The notes under the pieces: generated by a model | What the model was told of the DNA's origin: nothing | Database searches by the model: none | The model's input: only the letters and a program-made list of their open reading frames with translations | Position numbers and translations under genes: made by a program | Source of the DNA: Crossaster papposus | Taxonomy: Eukaryota > Echinodermata > Asteroidea > Velatida > Solasteridae | Direction of reading: 5' to 3' | NCBI GenBank assembly: GCA_037893245.1 | Contig: JBAIAA010000253.1 | Span: 124,001 to 188,000, forward strand | DNA: 64,000 nt | In this document: positions 11,956 to 61,764 of the stretch, piece after piece | How the letters are laid out: each line of letters starts with the position of its first letter | Position numbering within the stretch: position 1 is the first letter of the stretch

Positions 11956-13056
11956 ACAACCCATTATATTATACACGCTGTCAAGTTTTACAATTCAAAC
12001 ACACGATAAGAAGGAAATGCCATCTCTAACCTTGAAATAATCATAATTATTATCAGCAGATTGAACTGATTTTCGTCATGATTTCTCGTGTTTTTAATTA
12101 GCAACGAAAAATAATATCTTATTTTGAAGAAACCCTGTGCTTGTTTCGAAGCTAAATACTTACTCACGGCCTGGGCAATTTTCTACACGAGAGGGCCGTT
12201 CAAGAAGACAGTTAGTAATAAACCCGATTGCTTTTTTTACTCCCTATTATCTACAAACATAAAAAATATAAATCTACTATTTCCAAACACCAATATGCAA
12301 AGCTAAGCCAAGACCTGGTTTTAGTAGCATGAAACGACTGGAAATATCCCTATTTGCCCTGGATGAGATGCCACTCCATAGCAGGTTACTCCCCAACTAT
12401 TGCCGGTATTACAGTGGAACCCAGATATAAACGAACAACACGCGATTAACTTCTTACGCGTTTTGCGATTGGTGTCTTGCAAAATTAACGCGGTTCTGCG
12501 TGTTCATTGTGCGTCACGGTATAAATCGACATTGTTTTATGTTTCTCACGCCTTGTGCACGAGGAAGTCACTATAAACTATATCTCGTGTAGCGGTTCTT
12601 GTATTTTTCAAGGCACTTAGGCAACGACCCAGTTTGCCCTCAGCCTTGCGCTATGGTTAAATAATCCACAAGTCAAGAACATTTGGCGATGACAACAAAA
12701 ACGTTAAAGGAAACATGTAATAAGGTTTTTTTTTGCTTAAATCAATAAAGTATCATATTGACAACAACATTATGTGTGAGGTTGTGTTTATTTTCTGTGA
12801 TAAATGGGAGAAAATAATTTTTGAAAATGTTTAGTCATACCACTCCGCCCCTCAAAGGGAAGCCTCATTAACATAAAACTTCGCGTGGGGTATGACAAAA
12901 ATCGAGGCAGAGAATTGCCTCACTGCGGGGGTGCGCTACCCGGGCCTGGCTTGCATTATGCGCGCATTGCATGCAACAAGTCTTTGTCTACGAGTACGAG
13001 TTTACCATGCCGGTTTTTTATTCTAAATCAGGGTAAAAATACAACTGTTTTCAGTC

Positions 13057-14378: not shown

Positions 14379-15793
14379 AAGCGTACGTGGCCACGCGAAC
14401 CCGTCTCGTACCTAGACGTCGCGTACCGACTATCGATAATTTGTCCGGGTTCTGACTCGATTTACGTCACTCATTTTGAGTGGCCGCGAAATTTAAAAAG
14501 GGGGGGTCAATTTCTGGACGGCAAATTACCACACTAAACGTACACTAGAACCAGTTTTGCTTTTTATTCACATTTGATACACATAAATCTATTGATTTAA
14601 AACAAAAAATGCGTAATGAAGATGTTAGACTACATGTTTCCTTTAACGATAGCCAGATTCGAATTACAAACCTTTTGATCCATGGTTCACCTCTCTGTAC
14701 CAACAAGGCTATTGGCGAGTTAGTTGTGGACAGCCGTTCTTTATAGTTCTTTAATGTAGCTGAGTTGCTATTGTTCTTTCTCATGAATAATACATTTACG
14801 CACTGCCCAGCTGCGGAAAAAAAAATCGCGAACCGCTACAACCAATGAAGTATAGGAACTTATCTGGAAGTGACGCATGCACAAGATTATCCAAATTGGA
14901 TGAACTGAGAGGAGCCTAATTGGTAACCAATGTAATATCGTACTGTGTTAGCACTTCAAATTGAGATGGTTATCAGGGTACCCGTGTCTATAAAATGTAC
15001 AACAGATGTGAACAATATTTACAGTTTAATTTACATACAATTTACAACTTCCGACGTTCAAATCGATCCAAACTATTTTCTTACTTACTTTAAAAAAAAA
15101 ACAGTTAGAATCATTTGTGACAAAACTTAAAGGTTATTTAAATTAAAATACACTTTAGTGAGCAAATTTATGTGGTGTGTATTTAAAAAAAATAACAAGC
15201 AAGAGAGTATAATCGTGATTTGACGGTTGCGTACAACGTGTTCGAAATCAGAGTATTATACGAAAGGTTCATATGGAAGGCCTTCCAAAGAAGTACAAAC
15301 GAGAGGAACGTACATGGGTTCATATAGAAAGGTGTGTGTGCACACACACCGTTGGAGGGAAATACGGTACCATTTGAAGACGTGAACACAATGGGAATAT
15401 ACATCTCCACAAGTGTACATGTATCCACAAGGTTTATCACGAAATAGATATATGGATTGACTCAAAATTACTCAAATACTAGGGTTAGGATGTGGGTTAG
15501 GGTTAGTGTTTGGGTTAGGGTATAAGGTTATATTGGGTCGAAATTTCAACCCAGGAAATTATTTGTGGTTGAAAAAAAACCTGTCGATTTTCTAACCATT
15601 TTGTACACGAGAACAAATCGATGTCTACAGATACACAAATGCGAATATGTGTGTCGGTATTATGTGTAACCGTTGTCTCCACAGGGAATACAAAAAAAAT
15701 CAAGGCGCCTTCTCTCGGTCGATCATTTTCTATACCTTTGACTAAATTGTGTATTTTCAAACGCCGAATACGCTTCTCATGGACCTCCAAACA

Positions 15794-16036
15794 GGGGCCA
15801 ATTTCATAAAACATGTAAGCACAAAAATTTGCTTAGCACAAAAATGTCTTGCTCAGTAAAAACAGGTTATCGGCCAAAACTGCACAAGCTTTTCATTCAA
15901 AGCAAAAAAACAGCTGAATACCAGTCACAAACAATAAACATCAACGGAAATGTTGGTTTGTAACCCTGTTTTTTCCAAGGAAGAATTTTCATGCTAAGCA
16001 AATTTTGGTGCTTACACGTTTTATGAAATTGGCCCC
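15794..16036. mobile_element. GGGGCCAATTTCAT palindromic MITE, copy d (unit B)
   Basis: Counterpart of copy b, about 243 bp with intact ends. Confidence 0.78.
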
Positions 16037-16591
16037 TGATATTAAAAGCAAGCGACCAAAAAAAATATTGAATCAAATAATACCTCATGGTAGACGTTGG
16101 CTTTTTGGTATCGCAACATAATTGTAGAGTAAGCATTTAGCTTACCATAATTGTCACTTTGACACTTTGAATGTATCTCATAGGCTGCATACGTTTCGAT
16201 AGACGCGATACCTGAACGTTATAGCCAGTTGAGCCTTTCAGGTAAAAAGTGAGACTTTTCTTGGAAAAAAAAGGTTTTGGTCGTTCGCGTATGATGACAC
16301 TATTGTGTACGCTTGATACCAAAATAAACATTGCACTCTTTGGGTCTGTGATGAGCTGTCGCACACAATATATTGCGAGCCGGGACAATAATAAAGGGTA
16401 GGGTGCGACTGGATGTGAAGTTGAGCAAGTGATGTTTAGGTGCAAATCGTAAGACTCCTAAGGCTCCGTGTCCGTATCGGACATCCGGTGCTATGTACGA
16501 CTAACGCCAGTTGTCTCGTTGTTCACGCGAAACTGTAAAAAGCGACAAATTGTGGGAAAACGCTCATACACAGCTACTGGCACTGCGCATG

Positions 16592-16722: not shown

Positions 16723-17275
16723 CTAAATAAGGACACACGTTGTGCTGTGCTGCACGTTCGAGTTTCCGGTGCTGCTGACGGGCGACGTGTCACCCTTGTT
16801 CATGTTGGACTTGTAATCGTTCGGCATGCCCGTCCCCTTGTTGTCTGATGAATTATTGTTAATGGGCGGCTTGATCTCGGCTTCGCCCACCGGGCTCTGC
16901 AGATTGGCCCGGTTCTTGCCCTGGTCCGGGAGGTCGTTGTTCACCCTGTTGTCCTTCAGCGACGACGGCGTCCTCCCCTCGTCCAGGATCATCACCACGG
17001 GCACGTCGTGCGTGACCTCTGAACTCCCCCGCGAGTTGTTGACGTTGAGGGCGGCGTTCGTCTCCTTGTGGGGGGCCTTGGGCGAGCTGGAGCCCTCCAC
17101 CACGCGCCGCTGCGAGCCGTGCGGGTTGGGCGCATCCAGGGTGTCTCGCTCCACGCGGCCCGAGAGCCCAGAGCGCGGCCGGTCCTTCTCCAGGTTGACT
17201 GGGGTGTAGTTTGGGGAAATCAGTGTCCGTGGACCTCCGGTCTCGAAAGAGCCGCGCGGTCCCCTGCTAATTGCA
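16723..17275 (-). CDS. Gyc88E: sGC exon 12: polar C-terminal tail, CaaX-type end, stop
   Basis: This terminal exon encodes residues 665-847 and a TAG stop. The tail is low in hydrophobics and rich in Asn, Ser, Pro and Gly, so probably disordered; no domain is recognisable. It ends HSTTCVLI, a Cys-aliphatic-aliphatic-Ile box suited to prenylation. The acceptor is TGTTTTTGCAG. A second in-frame AG lies 12 nt downstream. GC content exceeds the surrounding sequence. No AATAAA or ATTAAA was seen on this strand within about 700 bp after the stop, so the 3' end is undefined. Confidence 0.88.
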
Positions 17276-20200
17276 CTGCAAAAACAGGGGAGACAAAGTA
17301 AACAACAAATTAACACCTGGCGTCAACTTCATTTGCTAGCAGCAAGAGCCGTTTACCAGAGTTGTATTTGAGTCCCCGCAATTCCCCACAAGTCCCTGCA
17401 GGTCCACCACAAGTCCTTCAGTCTTACATCAAGTCACTATAGCTATTCAGATGAACTGTTAACAAAAGCATTCCTTTGTCATTGTTCAACCAGTTACTTG
17501 CGACTGGTTTTATGATAAGACTTGTGACTGGACTTGTGAAAAGCCTTCCAGGGACTCGAATACAACACTGTCGTTTACTCAGCATAAGAACACACATTAA
17601 AGTTATAGCAACCAGCACTGCAAGTGGCAGACTTTAAACTTGGTGTGAATATCAACAAGTGAAAACGTGGTGTCATATTTGATTTAAAAAAGGCAATGTC
17701 AACAACGAAACAAATGACACCACGTCATCAATTTCATTGTCGCCATAGTCCGCATAAGTAAATAGTCTGCAACGCATAGTCTGCAACGCGCGTGCAAGTA
17801 GAACAGACGCAAAAAACTTACGCGCATCATGCCAGTTAAAATCATCTGCATCGGATACGTTACGCGCACGCGAATGTTTTGCGCTGTTTGCACAAAAACA
17901 AAGCCAAAGTGGAAACGCTCATTTGCTTATCGTGCGTTTCAGTTTTGATCGTATCGGCTTCGGTAACTTACTGTATAGAATACAAACGCAGATATGCAAA
18001 TAGCCGTAAAAAAGCCGTACAAAGTTTCGAGTTTTCCCATAGGTTTGTGCACAAACATGGATGCGCCCATATCCAGCAGGCATCACTTTGTACATCGAGC
18101 CAGTGCTCTAGTAATTTAATATAGCTCTATAACTACAACCTAATTGGGTCCTTCCATCAGGTTTGGATACGGCGAGGTATTTATCCATGCATATCTTTAA
18201 AAGTAATATCATTACGTTGATTCAGGTATTTATGTAACATCCGTATTTGGGTGTGGAATATGTTTTAACGGTTTTGAAATCATGTAAAAAAATTTTTTTA
18301 CACAAATATGATTACAAAAAAAGGTGTCATTCGGACCATGTTCGGACGTAACATTGACACGGTATCACATCCAAATGCTCAAAATTCACATCCTCGGCTG
18401 TGGATGTGAAACTAGTGGATGTGAATTTGAATCTTAACGACTTAACCCAGGATGTGAACTTGGACTGAAGAAGTGAATTTTGAGCAATTGGATGTGATTG
18501 TTAAAATCATTTGTTGAAATCAATGACTTTGTCCGCTTTGAATGTACAATAACATCATGCCCCCTCCTAGTGTTACGCCCTCAAGAGTTTGGTACTTTTA
18601 GATACCTTCTGAGTGACTCCGTTGACGAGTTGAGCGAGCTCCTGGAGGCGTTCATCTGCTCGTCCCCAGATAAACCAAAGGGCGTATCAGTGTCATCCAC
18701 CGCCTCCTTCCCCATTAAAAAGAAAGTCTTCATGTGGCCTTTGCCCTGGGAAATAAGAGGCGTATTAACCGTGAGTACGAAGTTAAAGAGATCTTACACA
18801 TAAAGGAGAATACACGTTTGTTTATGGTGTAAATCGAGAAGTTTCCTTTGTTCCTCTCGAAAATTTCCTTTGTTTGTACTATAACTTTTTCCGACGGCTC
18901 TTATTGGTTTTGTACACGAATCTCAATCGAGGTCGTCCTCGATTCTAACCCTAACCCCAATTCACCTTCGTGTCGCCAGGTATGTGTCCTCCATTTACAC
19001 CATAAACAAACGCAAACCTCTGTGTGTATGTTTATGGAGGAAGGAATCCTCCATGGTTTGTTCAAAAGGAAACACAATAGGGCATCATCGGTCGTTATAA
19101 CCCTGCCGTGGACAGAAGCACAATAGGCGAACGATAATTCCGTTCAGTCTACGGGCGTTCGTATTTTGTTGAATTTTGTTCTCTGTCGTTAAACTCAGCG
19201 TACGATAAGTAAATGAGATTAGCTTATAGTACATGAACAAAGAAAAACACAATAGAATATCATCGATCGTTATAACCCTGTCGAAGACAGAAGCACAATG
19301 GGCGAACAATAGATCCTTTCAGTCCTCGGGTGCATTCGTCTTTTGTAGAATTTTGTCCTTTGTCGTTAAAACATTTTAAACGGAAGTCACTAACAAATAA
19401 CAAGTGTAGCGGTTCTTGTTGTACTTTTCAAGGTACTTATGTACCCTAACCCGGTTTTCCTTTCAACCTTGTTTTATGGTTAAAATAACCCATCAAACAG
19501 TTTGTCGAAGAAAAAGACACACGTTAACGATAGTCGGATTCGAACCACAGACCTTTCGATCCATATCTCTCCTCTAAGCTATTGGCGAGTTGGTTGAAGA
19601 ACCGGTCTGTATAATTCTATATAGTTCTTTAATGTATATGAGTTGCCATTGCTCTTTCTCATGAATTGACATTCACGCACCACCCATCTCCTTAAAAAAA
19701 AATCGCGAACCGCTACATCGGTTGTTATTATTAAGTGTTTTCCATTTTAAACGGACACTTGCACTAGTTATATCTAAAACCGAAATGGCCGGATCACCTT
19801 GACCTCCGTCTTCATCGGCCTCTCCAGTAGGATGTAGTACGGCCACTTATGCAGGTAGTCCCGCGTGGACTCGCTGAGGTGTATCCTCATGGCTTCGCCC
19901 GTCGACTCCATACGCGAGGCGGTGTTGACCGTGTCGCCGAACAGGCAGTAGCGGGGCATCTTCAGGCCGACCACACCGGCAACGACCATCCCCGAGTGGA
20001 TACCTGCGAGCCGAAATAAAAGATTAAACAGGTGCTCCAAACGATACCACAATTATCCTGGTTTTAGGCCGTGTCCGAAACGGGCTTCTAGAGCTACGGC
20101 TACGTCTATTATCAGCCTGCTCACGCGTTATCGTAATGGGCGAACACCTAGATAATAACCATACAGACAAGACATTCGGACGCGGCCTCTTAAGTGTGCC

Positions 20201-21402
20201 ACGGCACTAACATTGTTAGTCGTTTTTTTTGTATTTTTTTGTATTTTTGTTATTATTCTGTCATCTTTCAGTACAAAAATGTCATACTCCAGCTATTCCC
20301 AGTTCGAAAACTTTGCCAAATAAAGTATTAGATGGATCTATTCGGATACCTTTATGCCTTGCACATAACTTGGGATAAGTTGTTTAGTACAACTGATATT
20401 AGCTGATATTACACATAAGCACTTCACTCCCGAAACAAGCTAGAGTTTGTTCAGTTTGAAAGTAAAGTCAAAACACAGATCTCTCATACGTTGTTAGCAA
20501 AAAACTAACTGCATTTCATTAAAGCGTGTTTGTAGAAGGGTGCACAACTTGCGACCGTACAGGTACCGATAATTATTAATTATTGTACAGATTGAGAAAC
20601 TACTCGTCCTGAATCCAACTTTATAGTCCTGTCTCTGGATCGTGGATGTTTGCATGTAGTTGACAATTATTTATAGGCTACATCATCTAATCATATATTT
20701 TTTGTTTTGTTATTTATTTCCCAAAACTAAGCTTAGGCTCCGTTTTCGGCTTCATCACCATTGCCAAACTGCATGAACGAAGCCAAAGACGAAGACGAAG
20801 CTGGGGTTTGGTAAACGGCCCTTTTCTCTCGTCGGAGTTTCCCCCATGCACTGTGACTTTAATACCGATTCTAATCTGCAACGACTGTCCTGTAGATGGG
20901 TCCTTTAGGGAGCCGATGTCTCTCTTCATCGATAACGCCATCTCGGCAACGCGCACCGCGTGGTACTTCGTTGCTGTCGGGGCACCGGCGACGATCATGT
21001 AGGCGTCCCCTATGGTTTCGACCTGCAGTTCAGCAAAGTTGACGAAATAGAACAATAACTCGTTTTAAAATACCCCCCTGGGCTGCTGAGCAAAGTTTAT
21101 TTCATTGCAAAAAAACCACGAAACTCCCGAGAAAAACCCCGGTAGTATCGATGTACATGTATTACGTAATTTCAGAGGAAAGTGGCCAGAAATCACCTCA
21201 GAGTATCTAGAATTCAAATTCTTCCGGGGCCCTTCAGTGGGCACCGGACCCCCGCCGTTATTGGAGTCAAGTTTGGTAGGTGAAGGGTACAGCCCTCCTC
21301 CCCTAAATTAAAAGCTAGATCCGCCTCTGGATATCATACATTGCACATAATTATGCTCTGATAGTATACTTCGAACTATTGCACATAAATATATTTTATT
21401 TT

Positions 21403-21433
<31 letters not shown>

Positions 21434-24400
21434 TTTTTTTTAATTTTTTTTTTGGGGGGGGCTAATGGCGTCTCGCTTTGTTACACTTTTTACTGCCCTT
21501 TTTTCGGAGAGTTTGGTGGCTCTCTTCTACGGCTTATTTGATGTGAGTGACCTCCCGAGTGTGAATTTAACGTGACCGCCAGTGTCTCACCTTGTACACT
21601 TCGTGGGATTCAGTGAGTTGGTCGAATGTTGTGTACATTGCGTTCAGCATGGCCACAACCTGCATAGGCTCAATGCGTGAACAGATTTGCGTGAAGCCGA
21701 TCACGTCACTGAAGAGTATCGTGGTGTCTTTGAATACCTGTAGGCAAAAACCAATCAGAGATAAGTTTGTTCACGCTGATTTGAGTGAAGCCAATCACGT
21801 TACTGTCCGTACAATGTGTGTCTCCATAAGCGTATCACGAGGTAAGTTTCGGTAAAAATAAGGACTTCAAACTTGGAGGCTATATACACAGGTACGAACG
21901 TGACACCTGTCTGTTTTAATAATGTGATAGACTTCGTGGCGAGTTATTATAAAATGATGATTTGTTTTCGTTAACGACATGGCCGACTACCAGTGGCGTC
22001 TCAAATAATGTACCTCACAGGTACTCGTCGCTGGTTCCCCTCGCCTGAGCTTATCTGCTACAGCTTTGGGGATCATCTGGTACAGCAACGAGTCGGTGCG
22101 CTTCATCTCCTGGTCCAGTTTGCGCATGCTCGATTCGAGCTGCGCGCTCTTTTGTAACTCCTAAAAAATACACACAAAAAAGGTTTATCTTATCTTATTT
22201 TAACAGTTGATTTTATTACAATTATTAAACAACTACTTTTCCCGAGCAAAAAAATCTGCAGCCTCAACAAATAAAAAACAAAATGCGTTATTAACTCTTT
22301 TTACCCCTCGGTTTACCGCCTCATTGGATACTAATGGCTCTTCTCACTGGCAACTCGCGTAGTATTTACCTGATCCAGGGCTATTTTCAGTTCAGCTGAC
22401 TGCTGGGTACCAGCTAATACCAAGTCTCTGCTCGAGTCGTACATGCTGAGATCGTTGATGTATAGTCCCGTCTGGAACATAGCCTCCAGATTCGGCATGC
22501 TGGAAAAGAGACCAACCACAACTTCGATTACCACTCAATGCCAATTAAAGTGTTAGTTCATTTTACACAAAATAAACCATAAGATTAAAAAGTCGTATCC
22601 TTATTTAGTGATACCCGCAATGTCGCTTGCCAGGTTGTATCGTAACATTAAGCGTGATCCCTGGCCACACGGAATTCTGGTGTTTATGACATCTGACTAT
22701 AGCGCCCTCGAACAAAGATACTGACAATTTGGGAGACCGCCAACATAATAGGGTAAGATAGCTCAGTTGATAGAGTGCCAGTCCAGTATTCCGGAGGTCG
22801 CAGATTCGAGTCCCGCCTTGCCAATTGCTTTGTTCACTTTGAAAGTTATTCCACTTTGGGTACAAAATTGGAGTAGCTATTGCAATGAGCCCTTGCTCAT
22901 GAAATGAAGTGCCTGCAAAAATGACGCTATAAGATTTTTAATTTCCCTCTTCTGTTACGGACAGATGTTTTGTTTTAAAGTGGTAGTATAAAACTACTTA
23001 CAATGGTGTTGCAAGGAAGACATAGCCATCCCACTCCGGAACGTACTTCATCTGCCCCTTTAAACGTAGTCTCCGTGGGTGTAAATTTTCCGCAATGATT
23101 TCTATTTGCCGTAAAGGAATGTGGAACCAGTTACCAAACATTAATGTATGATCTTTTCATCTTTAATATAAAAACAAACAGACAGACAGGAAATAAAAAA
23201 TGGGCGCGTCACATGACGTGAGAAATATTACACACTAAAAGCGGTTCTCAAATTTTGAGGAAGAAACAAAACCGGTAAGATACAATAAGACCATTCGCCT
23301 ATACACTGTAGAAAAAAATACCAATTGGACTGATAGTGGAGGAATTTACAGACTTTTCCTAGTAAACAATTACGGTTTATCAGTAAAAACAACCACGGTC
23401 CGACTGCAGAAAAAAAAGATGGCACCTTGTTGCACGACTTTCGACAGTAAATTTTACAGTAGGGCCTATATTTTTACAGTGTACCTATTCAATGTACAAA
23501 GTAATGAACTGATCACTGCACTTACAATCAACGTAGATAGTTTATGTTAAAAAAAACAGTCGCAAGTGTAGACGACTAAAACAGCAGACAACCTTTACAT
23601 ACAACCGTATTCAGCGTACGTAGTCAGTTCGATGGAAGTTTGAATGCATGTTTACACGTTAGTTCCGTGTCTGTTCATTTTGACAAGTGTAAATGAACAA
23701 AGTCAAGACCAGCTGGAAACCACACGAAGAAAAGTATTAATAAAAAGGTTTTTCTTTTCGCTGTTCTTCGTTGATATTATGAACTCGAAATTCGAAGTAC
23801 GTTTTTTTCATTACTTAGGTAAGTTCTCAAATTGACATATCGGGCACACGCTTTCAAAATGGCCTCTTTTTCGTACAAGCAAACTTCAAAACCTTGCCGT
23901 GCTGTTTCGATTGATCGATCGATTTTAACTACCTGTCTACATAGTTGTAAAGTGTTAGTAAAAAATAAGAAATGTTCTTTCAAGAAACCAGAACGGACGG
24001 GCATTCAAACAAACAAAAACCAGAGAAAATGCGAATGGATTCTTTCCTTGTACATGCAGAATAATAAATCATTCAACTAAATCTCAAAAAGAGAGAACTC
24101 GTTCGACTATAAAGTAAGTGTCAAGAAGATGGCTTCTTAATTATAATTATACGTTGATAGACCCGAATACGAAAATCTTTTGTTGTAGGTTGATACCTGT
24201 GTAATTATAATTGATTGGTACATTCACCACCTGTACATAAAGTCACTAACAATTATCTTTCAGTTAAGTGTATTTGTCCAATATACGTCTTTGGTAAAAA
24301 TGATCTTTTTAGAAGATTGTGGAATACATAGAAAATTACCGCTTTCCTTTGATTGACAATTGGTTCCTCCGAAAACTTTGAAGGTTAATTGTGCAAAAAA

Positions 24401-33400: not shown

Positions 33401-36400
33401 GCCGATCAATATTATATTCCGTCTACATATCGAGGTGGAACTTGCGAATCGCTTTTTTATGAATTGCCCATACACTCCTAACATAATAGATTTTGTTTCA
33501 TAAGGCAGTGATTAGGAAATCTGTAAAGCACTGTGTCTCGTTAGATAGCAAAACATAATCTTTTGAAACCGTACTTTCAGAGTTGTATAGCCGAGTACTT
33601 TCCAAGTACCAGCTTAACTACCAGGGGCCAATTTCATAGAGCTGCTAAGCACACAAATTAGCTTAGCATGAACATTTATCTTTGGCAAAAACAAGGTTAC
33701 AGACCAAAGGTTCACGTGATCTTTATTGTTTTCGATTGATAATCAGCTGGTTTTTTTACTTAGCGTGAAAAACCAGTAGAATTTTGGCTGGTAACCTGTT
33801 TTTAATGAGCAAGACTTTGTTGTGCTAAGCAAATTTTTGTGCTTAGCAGCTCTATGAAATTGGCCCCAGATATTAAGATGATCTGGTAGGCATATGGATA
33901 GAGCTGTACAGCACAGACACTGAACAGTAAATGCTCAACAAATTGAATTCTTTGGACAATCAGGATCTTGTATGAATTAAGCTTTTAAGACAAAACCATT
34001 CTGTATAGTACTCGACCGAGCAATTTTCGTGTACTTCTGTCCCAAAACTTTGAATAAAAATCTGTATACTGTACATCCAAAATCACAAGTGAATTTTTGT
34101 TTTAACACTGGCGTCATTTGTTGTTGACTTTCAATGTTTAACTTGCTTTGTTTCTTTGCAACAAACATTACTCAGTAGTACAACAAAAGTACTCAGAAAG
34201 TACCACTGGAAACGGGCTTAATGTGATTTTGCATTCAAAGCCGACACGGCCAACAGCAGAATGTGATTTCAACAACAGATTTCCGAAATCACATCCAAAT
34301 GCTCCAAATTCCCATCCTCTTCCAAATTTACATTTTGGATAAGGTCGTTCAAATGCAAATTCACATCCAGTTGATGTGCATTTGGACTTTAACGACTAGC
34401 CCAGGATGTGAATTTGGATGGAGGATGTGAATTTGGAGCATTTGGATGTGATGTTAGAAATCTTTTGTTGAAATCACATCCTGCTATAACTGGCCGTGTC
34501 CGATTTGAATGTAAAATCACATCAGCCCATTCCTAGTGTACTCGACTACAACTCCGCGAACTTCATTTTTGTTTTACCCACCCCAAGTCCATTAATTGTT
34601 GTTGTCTTAATAAACACGAGGTTATTACTCAAACACATTATTTTGTCCTTACCTTTATATTCTTCGTCGTCATCGGGGGCATCCGCCTCAACCTCGTTCT
34701 CATCTTCCTCCGGTACCACGCACGACACGATGGTGGAGATGCTTCGTATGACCATGTTTATCGTGACGACCTCGAAAACCACGTTTTCGTGTGCTCGGAT
34801 CTATTGGAGGAAAAAAACTACAGATTTTTTGTGAGAACAAACATGTATTTTTGTTCTCAAAGTGAACAAAGAAATCGGCAAGGCGGGACTTGAACCTGCA
34901 TGCGACCTCCAGAATACTGGACCGGCGCTCTACCAACTGAGCTATCTTGCCCTATGTTGGCGGTTTCACCAATTTGTCAGTATCCTTGTTCGAGGGCGCT
35001 AGTCAGAAGTCATAAACACCAGAATTCCGTGTGGGCAGGGATCACGCCCAGTTTTACGATACAACCTGGGAAGCGACATTGTGGGGATCACTCAATGACG
35101 ATACGACTTTTTACTTTATAATACACAAATAAACCACAGGGGGAACTGACTAGGTAAATTTGCATAAATGTCAAAGTGAACAAAGAAATCGGCAGGGCGG
35201 GACTTCAACCTGTGACCTGTTTTTTTAAATCAAGATTATGTATTGCCATGCAAGACCCGACGGTCGTTGTATGCTTAAAAGGGGCTGAATTATCCATGAC
35301 CTCTAAACAATCTCTCCATGAAAATACTCAACTATGCTTACGGTGTAAATAGACGTTTGTACCTATTTGCATAAACTCCTAATCTCCTATTGGTTTTGTA
35401 CATTGTTTTTTTAATCGAAGACGTCCTCGATTCCTTTGCTGTCCTCAATTTGGCGACGTTGTTTCGCAAGTGTGTCCTCGATTTACACCATAAACTTGTC
35501 TCCACACACAATGTGTGCATACACCTTCAACCGTGGACCCTATTTCCCTTTTTTTGTAATTTTTTTTCTTTAAAAGAGCTCCCATATTGTTTGTACACAA
35601 ATCTCATTCGTGGACTTTTGTCTACCGAGGACCTATTGTTCTCTATTGTTCAAGGTCCACGGTTGAAGGTGTTTACATGTACACACACACGCATCACTAT
35701 GTGTTTCAGGTGTACATCGATGGTTTGTTTTTATTCCTCCTCTGTTTTATACTGTTTTGCAACAGCCACCATTGGTTTTGTACACGTTTTCTAATCGAGG
35801 ACGTCCTCAATCCTACACCTGTCCTCAAAAGAAAAAGCACCGGGACATTTTAAAAATGCATAAAAGAAGTGCACTTTTCAATGAAATTTACCAAAAAGAA
35901 ACGCAAGCTAGTTTTTAGAAACTCAAGAGGAGCAGAAAGTTGCACAGAATGTGCAACAAGAATCGCAAAATTCATTGCATGGACACTTTAGGGAGAAGCT
36001 AGCGGGCATTTCACCGCGAACCTCGAAAGACAAACAATCTAACGCAAACGGAGACAGGTTCGCGTGCAACAGATATTAAATGGAAGGTCTAGATTTTATC
36101 AGAAAGCAAAGGGGACTCATCTCCGTGACTAATAATATGAATTTGAAGAGGCCCACTTCACTCGTGTCGGCCGCGGTGAATCGCTCGAGTAAATCACTGG
36201 GTTGAAAAATTCATTTCCGAGCTTCTTCTATACGAACGAGACGAGCGTATTAACTATTATAGTGACCAGTTCAAACACGAAATGTCAAAAGTACTACAAC
36301 ATTTAATTTCATTCTTCCGAGAACCTCTCTCTTATTTAAAGGGCGCTCGTCGTGTAATTAACTTTTGGTTCATTAGTTCACACTTGTCATTTCCCTAGTG

Positions 36401-39400: not shown

Positions 39401-42400
39401 CGATCGCTGATTGACTCCCTAGGAAAGCCTGCGGGGCCTTCAGATTTGCAAAGACGATAATAAGATAGTGAGAGAGCTGGTCTATAATCGTGTCGTTTGC
39501 GGGCGCACTGCGTGAAAGTATTATACGCGACGTGCACAATATCGATGACTGTCGTCTTTGGCAAAGACCACTAACGGGCCTACATCAATGTTTATCTCCG
39601 AAAAAAAATATTGGTTCTTACGTCGGGTTCAGCTAATTACTTATTACAGTTGAGCAAGATGGCGTCGACAGTGACTCCCTAACTCTCTCTTTCTTGTCGT
39701 GGAGGGGATACTTGTCTACGGAGCTCATAATAGCTGTTTCTATATACTTACATTGTCCCACGTGAAGGTCAGCAACGGCCGCTTGAGCTCAAAGACGTCT
39801 GTGATATTTTTGTCCACCAGAGTTGGCATGATTGCATTCAGACTCTTACCTGTTAACGAGACAGAATCACAGAAGCCAGAATAATTCAACAGTTTGTTAT
39901 GTTCAGTACATTACATTTAAGTGATTTTATATCTACATTGTTTACTATAATACGTTTATCTCATATTCTTATATTATACTGCATGCGTTGGGTGCCCAGC
40001 AGAAGGCTAATGTTAGGATGTATTTTGGCGGATACGGCCATATGTTATTCTGCCAGCACACGACAAACTAAGTTGTTGACAAAGTTGTACTTGGAAGGAA
40101 GTCTTTACTCTTTGCACCTATAATTTAGCAACCAATTTCAAGTTTTCTGAGGCAGCTGTAATTGCAGGGGTCGGTGTCATCTAAATTTGTGAAGCATTTT
40201 GCGACTTTTTTTGCTGTAAACGCAACAGAGTTAAAGGCAGTACGTACTGAGTAAATTTGCCTCACTAAAATGTTTAAGTGATTCATCCATTTTTCATGAG
40301 CAAAACACGCCGACTGTCCAAAAACTGTCAAACCACTCCAGTCTAGTGTGTTTATAGGGCACGTGTTCGTTTAGTTTTCCTTGGACCACTTGACACCTAC
40401 GCGCATACCCAAACTGCCGCCCATCTACTGAAGTGTTTACGGTAAAAACCATCACTTCCCATGGAGTGTGCTTGACCGAGCACCGCTGCGCGTGCGGTTG
40501 TTTTTGGTATGCACGCCACGCGCGTTTCGCCGCGATATGCGTTATTAACAGGTCAAGCGATAGCGGGGGATCGGGCGAGGTCGATCGCGACCGGCCCCAT
40601 CAGGAGAGACCGTGTCTGCTCCGGCTGCCTCTGCGCCCGGGTATCGGCTAAGTTGACCGGGAGTAATCGAGGAGGGCTATTAGTGGACGATCGATGGTGT
40701 GTCCGGAGTGCCGGAGATGAAGATCGAGCGGGCAGTAGAAGAGAAGGGGGTACTTAACTCGGAGATAAAAAAGGGCAAAGTTCACACCAGAGCTCGCGTC
40801 TTAAAGGACTAGTCTAGGAGCCAAGCTCGAAAAGAAGCTTATTTTGTTGTTTGTTTTACAAAGAGAAAAAGTTTGGCACTTGGAAGTACATGGAAGGGGG
40901 TGTCTCTGAAGTATTTATAAGACCGGGCGTAAGCATCCAAGGTGGCAGCAAGGTACTGTAATTCACCAATCTCTCAAGGTACACCCGCCTTGCTACTCAC
41001 ATCCCCCCAAATGTCTACATTGTATAGGAATATAGTATAGGCTGATTAAGAATAAAATACACACCATTAATGTTTCTATTAAAAAACAATGGTCCAATGA
41101 TTGGTGTTGTTTCCCATCAGACCAATCCACACGTTGACTTTCTCTCGGCTATCAGAACGGGATTTGGAATGGTAATGATTAGAAGAAACAATAAACAGGT
41201 GCTTACACAGTCGCAATGTTTAGCTCCACATTAATGACAATTTAATGATCTATTAAGAATAGCCGGCAATTGTTTATACTCAGCCTATACCTGCTATGTG
41301 AATGTTACACATTCCGAGAAAACAATATTCTAAGATTTCACAATCTGTGACGCCATTCTGCGTTCAGGGCGCGTTCTCAGCCAGCGGAATGCAGCTACTC
41401 GCGTGTCGCGCACTGAACAGACCAACAGTAGCGCCAACGCATGCACCGCGCGTGGTTTGAACACCTGCGCGCACTACTTGCGGATTTGTCGAAAAGTGCG
41501 TCTCTGACACGCATATTAGAAAATGGCATTATTTTGTTATTTTTCTTAAAAATGACAGCATGCCAGACGGAAAATTTTCACAGGGAGTTTAGAGCCATTA
41601 ATAATATATTTACAACAAGTAAGCTTTTCAACAGTATTTTGTTTGGTTACCAAGTTTGGATAGCTACAAAAAAGTAGATTACCCCCTTTAAAATTGGCGT
41701 CTCCTGTTTACATAAGCGCATTACTTAGATATACGAAACGGAAGGCGAAAGCCAAATATCCCCGGCGAATGGTGAGCTTTTCTCACCGCTTAATGCATTA
41801 TCAACGGGGCAGGTGTTAGGCAGCTGCAGACTATGTGCTTTAATGGCGCTTTTCTACAAGGAATATAATCTAATTGATCTTCAAAAAAAAAAAAAAAAAA
41901 TCGCCGCTCAAGAAACTGGATTACCATATTCTATGAATGTGATGTGGTTGTTTGTTTATGCAAGTTCTCTCCAAACAAGGCAAAAGCCAGTCGAGGTAAA
42001 AAAGCTACAAAGGTAAACAAATATATAAAAAAAATAAAAAAATAATAATAATATAGAAACTTAATTACCTCCAAATAGGCACTTGGGGAGACAATCCCAT
42101 AGAGATGTACACACAATTAAAACAGTCCTAACTTGTTTACCCTAACCCTTTTCTCTAAGATCTTCGAGATTTATGCTGAAATCTGTCGTTCTAGGACAAC
42201 AATAACTCCAAAAATATTGTTTTTAGGGTAGCTAGACACTTAGGGAGACTCTGAAATGTCTCCCTAAGTGCCACTGTCTCATTATTACCTAAACGATAGA
42301 CACTTATTACCTTCTTGAAGCAAGAGAGATTATATGATACAGGAATGCATGCACTAGGAAAAAAATCTACAGAGCTACAGAACGAGAAAAAAAAGCTATA

Positions 42401-60100: not shown

Positions 60101-61764
60101 AGTTTCTCCTCTTTTACATTTACACAAATAAACCACAAGGGATAAAAAGATAAAAAGTCGTAGCCTCATTAAGTGATCCCCACAATGTCGCTTCGCTTCC
60201 CAGGTTGTATCGTAACATTTGGCGTGATCCCTGGCCATACGGCATTCTGATAGTTGTGACTTCCGACTAGAAGCCTTCGAACACTAGATACTCTCCCAAA
60301 AAAGATACATTTGGGAGACCGCCAACATAACATAGGGCAAGATAGCTCAGTTGGTATAGAGCGCCGGTCGGTTGTTCCGAAAGTTGCAGGTTCGAGTCCC
60401 GCCTTGCCAATTTTCTTTGTTCGCTTTGAAATCGTTTACGTTTAGAGAGATATAGCGCATCGCATACATGGTAACACAAAACGTTAGGTAAACAAAAACA
60501 GTGGAGCAATGTTATTTGGCAAACATTGCTGGTTAATTCGGGTAAACATTTGCCAAGTGTGAGGAAAAGTGTACCCAAGATTGCGGACGCTCTACATTGT
60601 ACGATCTGAAAGCGCCCTGGGTTATCATTACCCCGTTCAAGCAATGGACCACGCGGCCGCCGATATCTGCGCACAATCAACCGCGATCAACACTCTGGGT
60701 ACCCGGTTATACTCCTGGGTGTTGAGAGGCAATTGTAGTAAAGTGTCTTATCCAAGGGCACAAATACTATGTCACTGGCAGGGTTCGAACCCACGCATCA
60801 TCGTACACGGGTCAAACACTGTAACCACTGGATCATAATGTAGCTTTTTTGGTACATGTTTGTCCCCCCCCCCCCCCCCACCACTATTTTTTATTTTGCT
60901 TTGTCATATCCAAATCGATTTTTCATAGAGGAAACAATTGAAATAAAGTTGATGTTTAATCAACGGATAGAATACAGTTTATTTTAAACACACACACAAA
61001 AGGGTTTGTGCCCTACTTCGTCCAACGAATGATGTTTTCACTATTCGTATTTCGAAACGAAGGATTTGAAATGTGCACTCACCGATATTCTTGATCTTCA
61101 TCTTTCGGTCGAACATGATGTGAAACGGAAACAGGTCGAAGAAGAGCGAAGCTTTGACGACCGAGGCTTCCTCCAGTCCGTAGACGTGCCTCTCCCTCTC
61201 GGAAAACTCCTTGTTGTCGAACAAGAGCTTGAAGACCACGAAAGTCGTGTCGCCGCGGGTTTCCTCCGACACCACCTGCACGGAGACGTCGAGGTTGTAG
61301 AACAACCGCCCGACGGATTTGAGCTGCCCCTTGACGTAATGCACGTAGCCCGGCCTGCGCGAGCGGTAGTGGAGGGTCAACCCGTGGCTGCTCTCGTCTG
61401 TGCAGAAGAAGCTCGGCGGCTTCATCTTCGGGTAGCTGAAGCGCAGGTACTCGTGGAGGTTGTCCAGGCCGTTCATGAAGTCCCTCATGCTCCGGCCCAG
61501 CACGCGCAGCATCTTGTCGTAGCCGTACTTGCTGAGAAACCGAACGAACTCCTTGCCTGTGATGTCCATGAACTCTTCGGCCGTACAGCCGGCGTACTCG
61601 CTGACGGCCTGGGCCAGCCGCGGGATGATCCGCTCGCTGTACATGCGGTGCGTAACGTAGGTGTACTCGTGGATGCGCGACTTCTCGCGGATGACCAGCC
61701 ATGCTTCCTCGCCGTACATGTGCTTGATCACCTCAATGGTGTTCTCCACTAGCAGCCCGTACAT
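16723..61764 (-). CDS. Gyc88E: Atypical soluble guanylate cyclase, Gyc-88E type, 12 coding exons, complete
   Basis: The gene encodes a haem-containing cytosolic cyclase converting GTP to cGMP; fly Gyc-88E relatives respond to O2 as well as NO. I joined 12 exons: 61083-61764, 39752-39849, 34653-34800, 27445-27480, 23002-23101, 22370-22499, 22014-22160, 21591-21737, 20866-21022, 19798-20003, 18606-18745 and 16723-17275. All introns are GT/AG, all phases agree, and the total is 2544 nt (847 aa plus stop). Domains: H-NOX (about 1-185), HNOBA/PAS (about 205-375), coiled coil (about 385-425), class III cyclase (about 445-630), and a 210-residue polar tail ending Cys-Val-Leu-Ile. Metal aspartates D458 and D502, purine residues E498 and C568, and transition-state N575 and R579 are all in one chain, so a homodimer should be active. 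Cyclase and HNOBA wording ([18 protein letters not shown]) matches the 88E type better than classical beta-1. Family assignment is strong; gas preference is inference. Confidence 0.95.
17358..17571. mobile_element. CAAGTCC-rich element, copy 3 (sGC intron 11)
   Basis: It lies about 80 bp upstream (transcript sense) of sGC exon 12. Left end TTGTATTTGAGTCCCCGC, right end GGGACTCGAATACAACA. Confidence 0.6.
18361..18578. mobile_element. CACTAGGAATGGGC-family MITE, partial
   Basis: Repeats of CACATCCAAATGCTC / GGATGTGAATTTG and the right end ATCATGCCC...CTCCTAGTG. The left terminus is lost. It abuts the donor of sGC exon 11 within about 27 bp. Confidence 0.6.
18606..18745 (-). CDS. Gyc88E: sGC exon 11: end of cyclase domain
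   Basis: This 140-nt exon encodes residues 618-663. [13 protein letters not shown] closes the catalytic fold, followed by a Ser/Asn-rich stretch. The acceptor is TTATTTCCCAG. The donor AGAAG/GTATCT is weak. A partial CACTAGGAATGGGC-family MITE begins only about 27 bp into the following intron. Confidence 0.9.
18815..19012 (+). mobile_element. CGTTTGTTTATGGTGTAAAT MITE, copy 1 (sGC intron 10)
   Basis: 198 bp with terminal repeats CGTTTGTTTATGGTGTAAAT and ATTTACACCATAAACAAACG. The interior holds ATTGGTTTTGTACACGAATC and GATTCTAACCCTAACCCCAA. Very similar copies are at 38910-39101 and 46480-46680. Confidence 0.78.
19405..19716 (-). mobile_element. tRNA-headed TIR element, copy 3 (sGC intron 10)
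   Basis: 312-bp intact copy with ends TGTAGCGGTTCTTG and GCGAACCGCTACA. Minus-strand B-box GGTTCGAATCC near 19530-19550. Confidence 0.72.
19798..20003 (-). CDS. Gyc88E: sGC exon 10: cyclase domain, purine and transition-state residues
   Basis: This 206-nt exon encodes residues 550-617. It contains [11 protein letters not shown] and [20 protein letters not shown], with guanine-selecting C568, and N575 and R579 positioned for transition-state binding. The residue pattern marks a guanylyl rather than adenylyl cyclase. The donor GTCAAG/GTGATC falls in the conserved VKGKG motif. Confidence 0.96.
20064..20190. mobile_element. TTAGGCCGTGTCCGAAAC element, short copy (sGC intron 9)
   Basis: Ends TTAGGCCGTGTCCGAAACGG and ATTCGGACGCGGCCT, about 127 bp. 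The longer relative is at 58145-58608. Confidence 0.55.
20866..21022 (-). CDS. Gyc88E: sGC exon 9: cyclase domain, second metal aspartate
   Basis: This 157-nt exon encodes residues 497-548. [15 protein letters not shown] supplies the purine-contacting glutamate E498 and the second metal aspartate D502. The donor is ATCG/GTATTA, weaker than consensus at +4 to +6. It must be used, because the next exon starts with the matching phase and completes the conserved IGIHSG motif. Confidence 0.94.
21399..21436. repeat. TTTA microsatellite (sGC intron 8)
   Basis: About nine TTTA units followed by a T run and a short G run. Confidence 0.85.
21591..21737 (-). CDS. Gyc88E: sGC exon 8: cyclase domain, first metal aspartate
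   Basis: This 147-nt exon encodes residues 448-496. It contains [11 protein letters not shown] with the first metal-binding aspartate D458, then the [13 protein letters not shown] helix common to class III cyclases. Both ends are phase 0 (acceptor TTGCCTACAG, donor AAG/GTGAGA). Confidence 0.96.
22014..22160 (-). CDS. Gyc88E: sGC exon 7: coiled coil and cyclase linker
   Basis: This 147-nt exon encodes residues 399-447. It begins with a heptad-like helix ([20 protein letters not shown]), the dimerising signalling helix. It then carries [20 protein letters not shown], which precedes every sGC cyclase domain. Both boundaries are phase 0 (acceptor TTTTTTAG, donor GAG/GTACAT). Confidence 0.95.
22370..22499 (-). 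CDS. Gyc88E: sGC exon 6: end of HNOBA and start of coiled coil
   Basis: This 130-nt exon encodes residues 356-398. The segments [19 protein letters not shown] and [10 protein letters not shown] are hallmarks of the 88E-type HNOBA to signalling-helix junction. The acceptor is TCTCTTTTCCAG and the donor CAG/GTAAAT, leaving in phase 0. Confidence 0.95.
22564..22862 (+). mobile_element. tRNA-derived SINE, copy 1 (sGC intron 5)
   Basis: A conserved 190-bp body (AATGTCGCTTGCCAGGTTGT, then CTGGCCACACGGAATTCTGG) is followed by a tRNA-like block at 22753-22823 with A-box TAGCTCAGTTGATAGAG and B-box GATTCGAGTCCC. The tail CTTTGTTCACTTTGAAAG is shared with copies at 34840-35143 and 60121-60440. The tRNA-like part is downstream of the body, unlike ordinary SINEs. 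Confidence 0.7.
23002..23101 (-). CDS. Gyc88E: sGC exon 5: end of HNOBA core
   Basis: This 100-nt exon encodes residues 323-354. It contains [19 protein letters not shown], the conserved HNOBA strand pair found in all sGC subunits (LKGQM...FLATP). It enters in phase 1 and leaves in phase 2 at CCATT/GTAAGT. The acceptor AAATAG is followed directly by coding sequence. Confidence 0.93.
23304..23481. mobile_element. CACTGTAGAAAAA MITE, TA-flanked
   Basis: 178 bp with ends CACTGTAGAAAAA and TTTTTACAGTG, both flanked by TA. Confidence 0.65.
25719..26059. mobile_element. GAGAGTGAG inverted-repeat element, copy 1
   Basis: Ends CTAAATGTAAGAGTAAACAT and GTTTTACTCTTTTACACTTAG. The arms contain CTCACTCTCAAAAAAGCGAG facing ACGCACTCTTTTGAGAGTGA. 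A second copy lies at 59886-60122. Confidence 0.7.
26826..27371. mobile_element. 546-bp imperfect foldback element
   Basis: The left end GTTTTTCCCGGCTATTTT is mirrored by AAATAGCCGGGAAAAAC. Matching arm segments include CAATTTCAAATTT and TAGTCTGGTTTGTG facing CACACACCAGACTA around a centre near 27122. Confidence 0.72.
27445..27480 (-). CDS. Gyc88E: sGC exon 4: 36-nt micro-exon in the HNOBA linker
   Basis: This short exon completes codon 310 and encodes residues 311-321 ([11 protein letters not shown]). The acceptor is TTCTGGTCAG and the donor AACG/GTAAGC. It is phase 1 on both sides and a multiple of three, so skipping would keep the frame. It lies in the variable HNOBA linker. There is no domain signature to confirm it independently, but splice sites and phase fit exactly. 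A 546-bp foldback element ends 73 bp downstream of it in transcript sense. Confidence 0.78.
27852..28186. mobile_element. AGGTAGGATACACC-family TTAA element, intact copy
   Basis: Ends AGGTAGGATACACCATTTGC and AATGGTGTATCCTTCCT. The right flank is TTAA and the left flank a degenerate ATAA. About 335 bp, without the CGGCGATCGCG core. Confidence 0.7.
28424..28766. mobile_element. AGGGATCGTATACGTTTGG TTAA element, truncated copy
   Basis: Inverted relative to 49157-49543. The right end ACGTATACGATCACT is followed by TTAA; the left end is missing. Confidence 0.7.
29880..30203. mobile_element. CACTAGGAATGGGC-family palindromic MITE, full copy
   Basis: Ends CACTAGGAATGGGCATGATG and CATCATGCCCATTCATATAGTG. 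The arms are rich in CACATCC / GGATGTG. Other copies are at 34204-34537 (full), 18361-18578, 44085-44215, 45779-45985 and 62979-63150 (partial). Confidence 0.75.
30808..31085. repeat. Internally repetitive element, GATCAAAAT / CACTTTTCC units
   Basis: About eight irregular units combining CCGGATCACAAT-like and CACTTTT-like words, beginning ACTCTAAAAAATACCCGGG. Possible MITE; terminal repeats not clear. Confidence 0.45.
31970..32290 (+). mobile_element. tRNA-headed TIR element, copy 4 (sGC intron 3)
   Basis: 321-bp intact copy in the opposite orientation. A-box TAGCCTAGTTGGTAGAG and B-box-like GGTTCCAATCT lie on the plus strand near 32107-32163. The ends are TGTAGCGGTT and CCCGCTACA. Confidence 0.72.
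32564..33015. mobile_element. Mariner-like MITE with perfect 45-bp inverted repeats
   Basis: 452 bp flanked by TA on both sides. The ends start CAGGGTGGTCCAAAAAAAAC and are identical for 45 bases on both arms. The TA target and CAGGGTG-type termini fit the Tc1/mariner superfamily. No transposase frame, so non-autonomous. Perfect arms suggest a recent insertion. Confidence 0.85.
33074..33329. mobile_element. GGGGCCAATTTCAT palindromic MITE, diverged copy
   Basis: Diverged ends GGGCCCAATTTCATGGATCT and GCCATGAAATTAGCCC. The centre is no longer alignable by eye. Confidence 0.55.
33624..33867. mobile_element. GGGGCCAATTTCAT palindromic MITE, copy e
   Basis: 244 bp, ends GGGGCCAATTTCATAGAGCT and AGCTCTATGAAATTGGCCCC. 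Both arms carry TAGAGCTGCTAAGCAC. Confidence 0.8.
34204..34537. mobile_element. CACTAGGAATGGGC-family palindromic MITE, full copy 2
   Basis: About 334 bp, ends CACTGGAAACGGGC and GCCCATTCCTAGTG. It lies 115 bp beyond sGC exon 3 in intron 3. Confidence 0.72.
34653..34800 (-). CDS. Gyc88E: sGC exon 3: HNOBA segment with acidic insert
   Basis: This 148-nt exon encodes residues 261-309, starting [12 protein letters not shown], a typical HNOBA helix and strand. The second half is strongly acidic (many Glu and Asp, residues about 290-308), a linker region that varies in length and charge among sGC subunits. The acceptor has a T-rich tract ending CCAATAG. The donor is AAAG/GTAAGG, leaving in phase 1. 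Confidence 0.92.
34840..35143 (-). mobile_element. tRNA-derived SINE, copy 2 (sGC intron 2)
   Basis: The tRNA-like block is at 34878-34951 on the minus strand (GATAGCTCAGTTGGTAGAGC ... GGTTCAAGTCCC). Acceptor pairing is six bases with a mismatch at the seventh and the anticodon loop is abnormal, so it is not a tRNA gene. It ends about 40 bp from sGC exon 3, in intron 2. A partial extra tail follows at 35165-35215. Confidence 0.7.
35340..35840 (+). repeat. Degenerate relatives of the TTTATGGTGTAAATCGAG MITE
   Basis: Two diverged partial units containing TTGGTTTTGTACA, GACGTCCTCGATTC and GATTTACACCATAAAC. Between them lies an inverted pair, ACACCTTCAACCGTGGACC (near 35521) and GGTCCACGGTTGAAGGTGT (near 35653). 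Confidence 0.5.
37325..37366. repeat. Poly(C) tracts
   Basis: Two C runs (37325-37339 and 37342-37366) separated by TA. Length may be unstable or mis-assembled. Confidence 0.85.
38910..39101 (+). mobile_element. CGTTTGTTTATGGTGTAAAT MITE, copy 2 (sGC intron 2)
   Basis: 192 bp, intact ends, interior nearly identical by eye to copy 1. Confidence 0.78.
39752..39849 (-). CDS. Gyc88E: sGC exon 2: HNOBA/PAS segment
   Basis: This 98-nt exon encodes residues 229-260, beginning [10 protein letters not shown] and ending LTFTWDN. It enters in phase 1 and leaves in phase 0. The acceptor reads GTTAACAG on the minus strand and the donor AAT/GTAAGT. The sequence continues the HNOBA domain exactly where exon 1 stops. 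It follows a 21.2-kb intron. Confidence 0.93.
40480..40760. promoter_or_regulatory. CpG-rich patch in sGC intron 1
   Basis: A GC- and CpG-dense stretch (for example CGATCGCGACCGG near 40581) about 0.6-0.9 kb upstream of exon 2 in transcript sense, in otherwise AT-rich sequence. It could be an internal promoter or enhancer, or simply an old element. No coding frame is convincing. Confidence 0.3.
42231..42268. repeat. Short hairpin
   Basis: CACTTAGGGAGAC and GTCTCCCTAAGTG separated by a short loop. AGGGAGAC words recur at 56503-56530. Confidence 0.5.
43454..43683. mobile_element. CAAGTCC-rich element, copy 4, intact
   Basis: The ends CAGGGTTGTAGTCGAGTCCC and GGACTCGACTACATCCCTG form clear terminal inverted repeats. 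It is the best reference copy in the window. Confidence 0.65.
44085..44215. mobile_element. CACTAGGAATGGGC-family MITE, left half
   Basis: Left arm only (CACTAGGAATGGGTATAATG to AAATGCTCAAAATTTACG). Confidence 0.6.
44740..45090. mobile_element. AGGTAGGATACACC-family TTAA element, left end degraded
   Basis: Core GCGATCGCCGCCGGCGATCGC and right end AATGGTGTATCTTACCT followed by TTAA. The left end is not recognisable. Confidence 0.62.
45126..45153. repeat. Poly(C) tract
   Basis: 28 C in a row. Confidence 0.85.
45779..45985. mobile_element. CACTAGGAATGGGC-family MITE, left half
   Basis: Left arm with an extra repeat of CCAAATTCACAT. The right arm is absent. Confidence 0.6.
46480..46680 (-). 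mobile_element. CGTTTGTTTATGGTGTAAAT MITE, copy 3 (sGC intron 1)
   Basis: 201 bp, inverted relative to copies 1 and 2, intact ends. Confidence 0.78.
48015..48508. mobile_element. 494-bp inverted-repeat element
   Basis: Arms of about 100 bp: CTAGCCTTGAGTGCAAGGCT at the left faces AGCCTTGCACTCAAGGCTAG at the right, and GGAGTCTAATCACTGGCAGT faces its complement. The terminus is itself a small palindrome. Confidence 0.75.
49157..49543. mobile_element. AGGGATCGTATACGTTTGG TTAA element, intact
   Basis: 387 bp with terminal repeats AGGGATCGTATACGTTTGGT and ACCAAACGCATACGATCCCT, each flanked by TTAA (49153-49156 and 49544-49547). An internal hairpin reads AATCTGAGAA...TTCTCAGATT. Kolobok-like by target site and AGG termini. 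Confidence 0.78.
50457..51159. mobile_element. 703-bp element made of many short GC hairpins
   Basis: The terminal repeats CTAATGGGCCAGTCACAA and TTGTGACTGGGCCATTAG bound a region packed with words such as CCTCCGATTAATCGGAGG, CCGACTGAATCGG and CTCCGATGCAATCGGAGG. Frames are open on both strands only because the palindromes avoid stops; none resembles a protein family. Superfamily not assigned. Confidence 0.7.
52297..52339. repeat. Poly(C) tract
   Basis: About 42 C with one T interruption. Confidence 0.85.
53160..53218. mobile_element. AGGTAGGATACACC-family TTAA element, right-end fragment
   Basis: GATATCTGCAAATGGGGTAT then CCTACCT and TTAA. The rest of the element is missing. Confidence 0.6.
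53333..53691. mobile_element. AGGTAGGATACACC-family TTAA element, best copy
   Basis: About 360 bp with ends AGGTAGGATACGCCATTGGT and GGTTTATCCTACCT, both flanked by TTAA. The centre carries the palindrome CGATCGCCGGACGGCGATCG. Confidence 0.78.
53744..54007. repeat. Clustered TTTTGAAAGGT motif
   Basis: About ten copies of TTTTGAAAGGT or its complement in 260 bp with irregular spacing, some as back-to-back pairs (ACCTTTCAAAACCTTTCAAG). No terminal structure seen. Confidence 0.7.
54663..54895. mobile_element. GGGGCCAATTTCAT palindromic MITE, copy f
   Basis: Ends GGGGCCAATTTCATAGAGCA and TATGAAATTGGCCCC. Both arms share the variant TTAAGCAC. Confidence 0.75.
55418..55660. mobile_element. GGGGCCAATTTCAT palindromic MITE, copy g
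   Basis: 243 bp. Both arms read TTTCACGGAGCTGCTAAGCA, a variant not seen in other copies. Confidence 0.8.
56636..57166. mobile_element. Element with inverted GGGCGCTTTAGTAACGAGAC ends
   Basis: About 45-bp inverted ends, GGGCGCTTTAGTAACGAGAC at the left and GTCTCGTTACTAAAGCGCCC at the right, enclosing about 440 bp without recognisable coding sequence. Confidence 0.68.
58145..58608. mobile_element. TTAGGCCGTGTCCGAAAC element, long copy (sGC intron 1)
   Basis: 464 bp with ends TTAGGCCGCGTCCGAAACGG and GTTTCGGACACGGCCTAA. The subterminal zones are built from repeats of TAGAGCTACAGCTACGGC and its complement. No coding frame. Confidence 0.72.
59886..60122. mobile_element. GAGAGTGAG inverted-repeat element, copy 2
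   Basis: Same family as 25719-26059, about 237 bp, left end CTAAGAGTAAAAAGCTCACT and right end CTCCTCTTTTACAT. Confidence 0.65.
60121..60440 (+). mobile_element. tRNA-derived SINE, copy 3 (sGC intron 1)
   Basis: Same body and a tRNA-like block at 60336-60408 (A-box TAGCTCAGTTGGTATAGAG, B-box GGTTCGAGTCCC). Confidence 0.7.
60570..60840 (-). repeat. Second tRNA-headed repeat type
   Basis: The minus strand begins with GGTTACAGTGTTTGAC and B-box GGGTTCGAACCC, then GTGCCCTTGGATAAGACAC. This arrangement is typical of a tRNA-derived SINE; the family is not identified. Confidence 0.5.
60864..60879. repeat. Poly(C) tract
   Basis: 16 C in a row. Confidence 0.8.
61083..61764 (-). CDS. Gyc88E: sGC exon 1: start codon, H-NOX haem domain, start of HNOBA
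   Basis: This exon encodes residues 1-227 and one base of codon 228. The ATG (61762-61764) has A at -3 and an in-frame TGA three codons upstream, so the start is well fixed. The protein opens [10 protein letters not shown]. The predicted proximal haem ligand is H104 in the NLHEYL segment. The haem-propionate YxSxR motif is present as Y133, S135 and R137, and the conserved proline is near P117. HNOBA begins around residue 205 ([12 protein letters not shown]). The donor on the minus strand reads ATCG/GTGAGT. A large frame on the opposite strand is only its shadow. Confidence 0.96.

Follow-up and report, generated by a model that had tools for sequence, protein, structure and literature searches.

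The 64,000-nucleotide stretch of Crossaster papposus DNA analysed here (the window, part of contig C253) carries on its minus strand a gene for an H-NOX guanylate cyclase, running from 61764 to 16723, in which 11 exons join with closing phases into a single frame of 835 residues, with GT-AG signals in 10 of 10 introns. The protein starts with MYGLLVENT and ends in TTCVLI, followed by a TAG stop codon. Exon 1 (61083..61764) contains the start codon, the complete H-NOX domain with His104, the stretch YRSRR at 133-137 and Tyr143, and the start of HNOBA; it is supported by PDB alignments and by a Pfam HNOB match over the full profile length (4.8e-50, with a query that left out exons 2 and 3). Exon 2 (39752..39849), which encodes a part of HNOBA, was found by a weak tblastn lead and then by its splice sites, and a query containing the exon 2 piece matched HNOBA at 7.5e-46. 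The middle of HNOBA lies in exon 3 (34653..34800), the least certain exon, which was obtained by a scan of splice sites and open reading frames. When 58 splice-compatible candidates for this exon were ranked against an approximate segment of human beta1, the best two were one exon with two donors, and the donor at 34653, matching in phase on both sides, was chosen. Exon 4 lies at 23002..23101, exon 5 (22370..22499) encodes HNOBA sequence, and exon 6 (22014..22160) encodes the end of HNOBA or the helix preceding the catalytic domain. The catalytic domain occupies exons 7 (21591..21737), 8 (20866..21022) and 9 (19798..20003) and ends in exon 10 (18606..18745), where the tail starts. Exon 11 (16723..17275), the last, coincides exactly with the stretch singled out in the first-pass annotation.

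The same Pfam search, with the query lacking exons 2 and 3, gave HNOBA at 1.7e-41 and Guanylate_cyc at 1.8e-64, and the top PDB match of the joined protein was human sGC beta1 (4.2e-100). The domain order is the same as in classical sGC beta1 (PDB 6jt0_B and 6pas_B), in contrast to several residues by which the two differ. In a MAFFT alignment of the gene with human beta1, Manduca beta1 and the bacterial H-NOX Alr2278, Tyr143 takes the place of beta1 Ile145, and Leu77 and Phe209 those of Cys78 and Cys214, which we take to be the two NO-linked cysteines referred to below. The heme ligands are present, as His104 for the proximal histidine and Tyr133/Ser135/Arg137 for the YxSxR motif. The catalytic set, with the residues assigned within the cyclase domain as we take them to be, is complete in one chain, including ETIGD and FSD, the latter in place of the FSG of beta1, so that the enzyme has the residues of a homodimer-capable cyclase. 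For the catalytic domain, the best-scoring match was the receptor cyclase NPR1 (8.4e-55). AlphaFold in single-sequence mode gave a model of low quality for the H-NOX domain (mean pLDDT 49.1), which was set aside.

A tyrosine at the pocket column of Tyr143 (141 in the numbering of the paper) is characteristic of a basal clade comprising Gyc-88E, MsGC-beta3, GCY-31 and GCY-33, as compared with isoleucine in beta1 and beta2 and with a nematode clade that has its tyrosine three columns earlier (PMC1435932, Fitzpatrick 2006). Residues 138-147, in exon 1, hold two tyrosines, Tyr143 in the column of the 88E clade and Tyr140 in that of the nematode clade, and thus both O2 signatures of PMC1435932. According to the available text of the same paper, Manduca MsGC-beta3 has lost the two NO-linked cysteines, as has the present gene, and MsGC-beta3 and Gyc-88E, which also share the pocket tyrosine with it, are active as homodimers. 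Because of Tyr143, the absence of equivalents of Cys78 and Cys214, and the one-chain catalytic set, we accept the designation of an atypical, 88E-type cyclase made in the first-pass annotation, as one that rests on signature residues. Small trees, constructed without Gyc-88E, GCY-31 and GCY-33 as references, placed the H-NOX piece beside and outside the beta1 clade (support 0.77) and the catalytic piece beside receptor cyclases, again outside the beta1 clade (0.83); they disagree on the neighbour and are weak, and the placement is no finer than "not within beta1". Membership of beta2 (GUCY1B2) was rejected, as Tyr143 stands where a non-polar residue is required, and classical beta1 identity was rejected too, with Cys78, Cys214 and FSG absent and a CaaX end present. 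Since Tyr143 occupies beta1 position 145, O2 appears to be a likelier gas than NO for this protein.

The end of the reading frame is encoded at 16723..16737 on the minus strand by TGT GTC CTT ATT and TAG (the stop at 16725-16723), giving HSTTCVLI with Cys832-Val-Leu-Ile as a Cys-aliphatic-aliphatic-X sequence at the extreme C-terminus. Exon 11 encodes residues 652-835 (184 residues, with residue 652 shared with exon 10); its acceptor, tgtttttgcag, directly precedes 17275 and is in phase with exon 10. The GC content of the exon was 0.62, as compared with 0.40 in the preceding intron, and GC3 in the coding frame was 0.84. Using a synonymous-codon preference trained on exons 1-10, the coding frame scored 0.231, the highest of the six frames, followed by 0.104. 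GC3 fell across the TAG from 0.80 in the 30 codons before it to 0.40 in the 30 codons after it. An artefactual frame was rejected on account of the codon preference and this drop, and a position of the end inside a repeat was likewise rejected, as no self-BLAST match of the window at E 1e-10 overlapped exon 11. The CaaX end, described in the first-pass annotation as Thr-Thr-Cys-Val-Leu-Ile followed by TAG, is thus confirmed at the level of the gene model, by splice phase, codon preference and the drop in coding signal at the TAG. In the six frames of the window, the pattern C[AVIL][AVIL][LIMF] directly preceded 5 of 5207 stops; among stop-to-stop ORFs of at least 100 residues it ended one of 55, namely that of exon 11. 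Downstream of the stop, no AATAAA or ATTAAA was present within 1692 bases. Reading through exon 10 leads to the end YLKVPNS, which lacks a CaaX box, suggesting that a soluble isoform is possible.

The tail after the catalytic domain comprises 218 residues, including the 184 of exon 11, and by the charge-hydropathy rule it counts as disordered, with a value of 0.391 where the boundary lies at 0.417, as compared with the H-NOX (0.455) and catalytic (0.491) domains on the ordered side. This agrees with the disordered tail of about 180 residues proposed from the first inspection. Its only cysteine is Cys832, and the 20 residues before it contain one Lys and one His as basic residues, as compared with 7 in the corresponding part of the tail of a paralogue on contig C89; neither a polybasic stretch nor a candidate palmitoyl cysteine was found as a second signal. 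Such a second signal is frequent but not universal in CaaX proteins. With so few basic residues, and no cysteine in the tail besides Cys832, this protein seems less likely to have a stable plasma-membrane anchor than to shuttle, or be targeted to cilia, on a carrier that binds prenyl groups.

To place the CaaX end among its relatives, a profile search was carried out over the whole assembly (1.02 Gb, 1841 contigs), with 11 of 11 first-look candidates scored. Six HNOB matches were found, in a type of search that a more divergent gene could escape. Besides the present gene, with Tyr at position 145, these were a gene on C89, with Ile at this position and the end HRESKTCILL; two near-identical genes on C451 and C591, both with Val at this position and the end GPPSKICVVL; and two classical genes on C345. 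One of the latter is a beta1 gene with equivalents of Cys78, Cys214 and Ile145, ending in SEEQSQAEQ; the other is an alpha gene with the weakest HNOB match (4.4e-4), ending in DNTEDQKLW. The two lie on one strand of C345, at 367-387 kb and 421-441 kb, about 53 kb apart; alpha and beta1 genes are a neighbouring pair in vertebrates too. A CaaX box with a final Leu or Ile thus ends four of the four non-classical H-NOX genes found (three of three if the near-identical pair is counted as one) and neither of the two classical genes, and in every gene with a CaaX end the junction between the last two exons is in phase. The lack of such a box on classical beta1, asserted in the first-pass annotation, holds for the beta1 gene found here. 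Viral and prokaryotic contigs, scanned once each, yielded no relatives, as expected for an animal gene.

In contrast to the ends, the tails of the paralogues are mutually unrelated. When the last four residues were removed, shuffled sequences scored as well as the real tails in 138 of 200 cases for the present gene against the C89 gene, in 181 of 200 for the present gene against the C451 gene, and in 60 of 200 for C89 against C451, no comparison being better than shuffles. The first-pass annotation had proposed to ask whether the final residues are fixed while the tail drifts; asked here of paralogues within one genome, the CaaX class is kept and the tails are unrelated. The last exons of the C451 and C591 genes, compared over 80 codons, differ by 6 non-synonymous changes and 1 synonymous change, showing no sign of purifying selection. 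The near identity of this pair means that there may be three distinct non-classical genes besides the classical two. Large collinear blocks of the two contigs are mostly 85-93% alike, and the last exons are about 96% alike besides a 6-base gap; by these sequences the pair may be two haplotypes of one gene or the product of a recent duplication. With Ile or Val at position 145, the C89 and C451/C591 genes look closer to beta2, and the CVVL of the C451/C591 pair is presumably the end of rat beta2 as well.

The Ile of CVLI belongs to the X class of GGTase-I (Leu, Ile or Met), and in the available text of PMC11152559, CaaL, CaaI and CaaM are described as GGTase-I ends. According to the same text, human GGTase-I fully modified CVLL and almost fully modified CTII, both GGTase-I and FTase accepted CVLM and CNLI, and of the CaaL/I/M ends tested all but CSFL were fully modified by human farnesyltransferase. 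CVLI itself is absent from the text of PMC11152559. Since its first part is that of CVLL and CVLM and its terminal residue is Ile, CVLI should be, by analogy with these ends, a substrate of GGTase-I, FTase or both.

Among the nematode cyclases to be compared, GCY-35 belongs to a separate nematode clade. GCY-33 and GCY-35 are, like the present gene, O2-type H-NOX cyclases, in another animal and compared here without their C-terminal sequences. According to the available text of PMC6953435 and PMC6007932, GCY-33 is located in the cilia of BAG neurons, and GCY-35 at the end of the URX dendrite; GCY-33 groups with Gyc-88E, and GCY-31 and GCY-33 are the only nematode members named in the 88E clade in the accessible part of PMC1435932. 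The title of Gross et al. (2014, J Neurosci) states that PDL-1/PrBP sends prenylated soluble guanylate cyclases to dendritic endings, and ciliary delivery of prenylated proteins with PDE6delta is described in the part of PMC6678300 at hand. In vertebrates, sGC beta2 (GUCY1B2) has a C-terminal extension of 86 residues that contains an isoprenylation or carboxymethylation sequence (PMC8200204, available text). The first-pass annotation mentioned a similar CaaX end for this subunit, but not the nematode parallel. Both beta2 and the present gene have a C-terminal extension and a prenylation-type end, and they differ in the pocket, beta2 having Ile (PMC1435932) and the present gene Tyr. Mouse neurons expressing Gucy1b2 sense low O2 (PMC6131590), and a direct receptor role of Gucy1b2 in this sensing is called unclear (PMC12755159), in the accessible portions of these two papers.

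Prenylated or prenylation-competent H-NOX cyclases are thus already described in two other lineages. In the available portions of the literature on Gyc-88E and MsGC-beta3, no statement on a CaaX end was found, and those of PMC4718211 and PMC7179362 contain nothing on C-termini. Among the matches listed in the open-access literature, no title or abstract opening dealt with an 88E-type cyclase ending in CaaX. The present analysis contributes the genome-wide pattern, in which CaaX is found on every non-classical H-NOX gene found, including the 88E-type member, and not on the classical pair.

We consider it probable that the gene encodes a homodimer-capable, 88E-type H-NOX cyclase with a working prenylation signal, delivered by a carrier to sensory endings or cilia. 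The heme pocket would be built as in the O2-binding class in an enzyme capable of homodimer formation, and CVLI would be read by geranylgeranyltransferase I or farnesyltransferase. Attachment of the lipid would be followed by removal of VLI and methylation of the Cys. The lipid could then let a carrier of the PDE6delta/PDL-1 kind bring the enzyme to cilia or sensory endings by way of the long, flexible tail, and there O2 (or NO) would alter cGMP beside its targets. Of the membrane-tethered, gas-sensing source of cGMP proposed in the first-pass annotation, the CaaX end, the 88E type, the classical beta1 without CaaX and the pattern among paralogues all stand, and the stable membrane anchor is the part judged less likely, in view of the few basic residues and the single Cys.

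One alternative is that the CaaX arose by chance, in that the protein happens to end in Cys-Val-Leu-Ile and is not prenylated in the cell. The pattern does occur by chance before stops in the window, no polybasic or second-Cys signal lies near Cys832, and the last exons of the C451/C591 pair lack purifying selection. However, a CaaX end of the same class is present on every other non-classical H-NOX gene found and absent from beta1 and alpha, and we regard a chance end as highly improbable. Quite improbable, too, is that the main product is soluble, intron 10 being retained or another last exon being used, with the CaaX isoform as a minor form; the short open end reached by reading through exon 10 would allow this, but the coding signal of exon 11 is strong and breaks off at the TAG, its splice phase matches and its acceptor is good.

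A further alternative accepts the lipid but not the ligand, in that CaaX would serve NO sensing by placing an NO receptor at membranes, Tyr143 notwithstanding. The other CaaX genes of the genome have Ile or Val in the Tyr143 column, and NO-binding beta subunits have Ile there (PMC1435932). Tyr143 and the missing equivalents of Cys78 and Cys214 argue against this for the present gene, and we consider it unlikely. We prefer the hypothesis of a carrier-delivered, prenylated cyclase of the O2-binding class.

More tentatively, and with less than even confidence, we suggest that a C-terminal CaaX is an ancestral mark of animal non-classical H-NOX cyclases (88E, beta2 and nematode types), whichever gas they sense, and that it was lost by the alpha/beta1 heterodimer. 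This reading fits the tree in the accessible part of PMC1435932, in which the 88E clade has a basal position and beta2 falls into another group. If it is true, the first H-NOX gas sensor would have been a cyclase homodimer that a prenyl shuttle carried to sensory endings, with the cytosolic NO receptor as a derived form. The physiology of sGC is mostly modelled on the freely diffusing alpha/beta1 enzyme. Should the non-classical cyclases form a prenylated class in which a free tail drifts and the end stays fixed, the site at which gas-dependent cGMP is made would be an old, selected property, which could be tested by changing one residue in each of a few genes. Such a class would also join the isoprenylation site of beta2, worm PDL-1 and low-O2 sensing in mouse olfactory neurons.

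Several repeats surround the gene. Downstream of its stop, 2743-5854 is directly repeated at 9544-12707 and 6137-7955 at 14736-16498, with identities of 87% and 94% and distances of 6.8 and 8.6 kb, respectively, and by this similarity the repeats look like a recent duplication. A 98-base piece at 9449-9546 recurs at 16494-16591 (95%), leaving 132 bases between the second copy and the CaaX exon. We also found a dispersed repeat family, with copies at 22562-22844, 34857-35120 and 60119-60431 that are 78-87% alike. Two of these copies contain tRNA calls by ARAGORN, for tRNA-Thr and tRNA-Asn, which suggests that the family is a tRNA-derived SINE.
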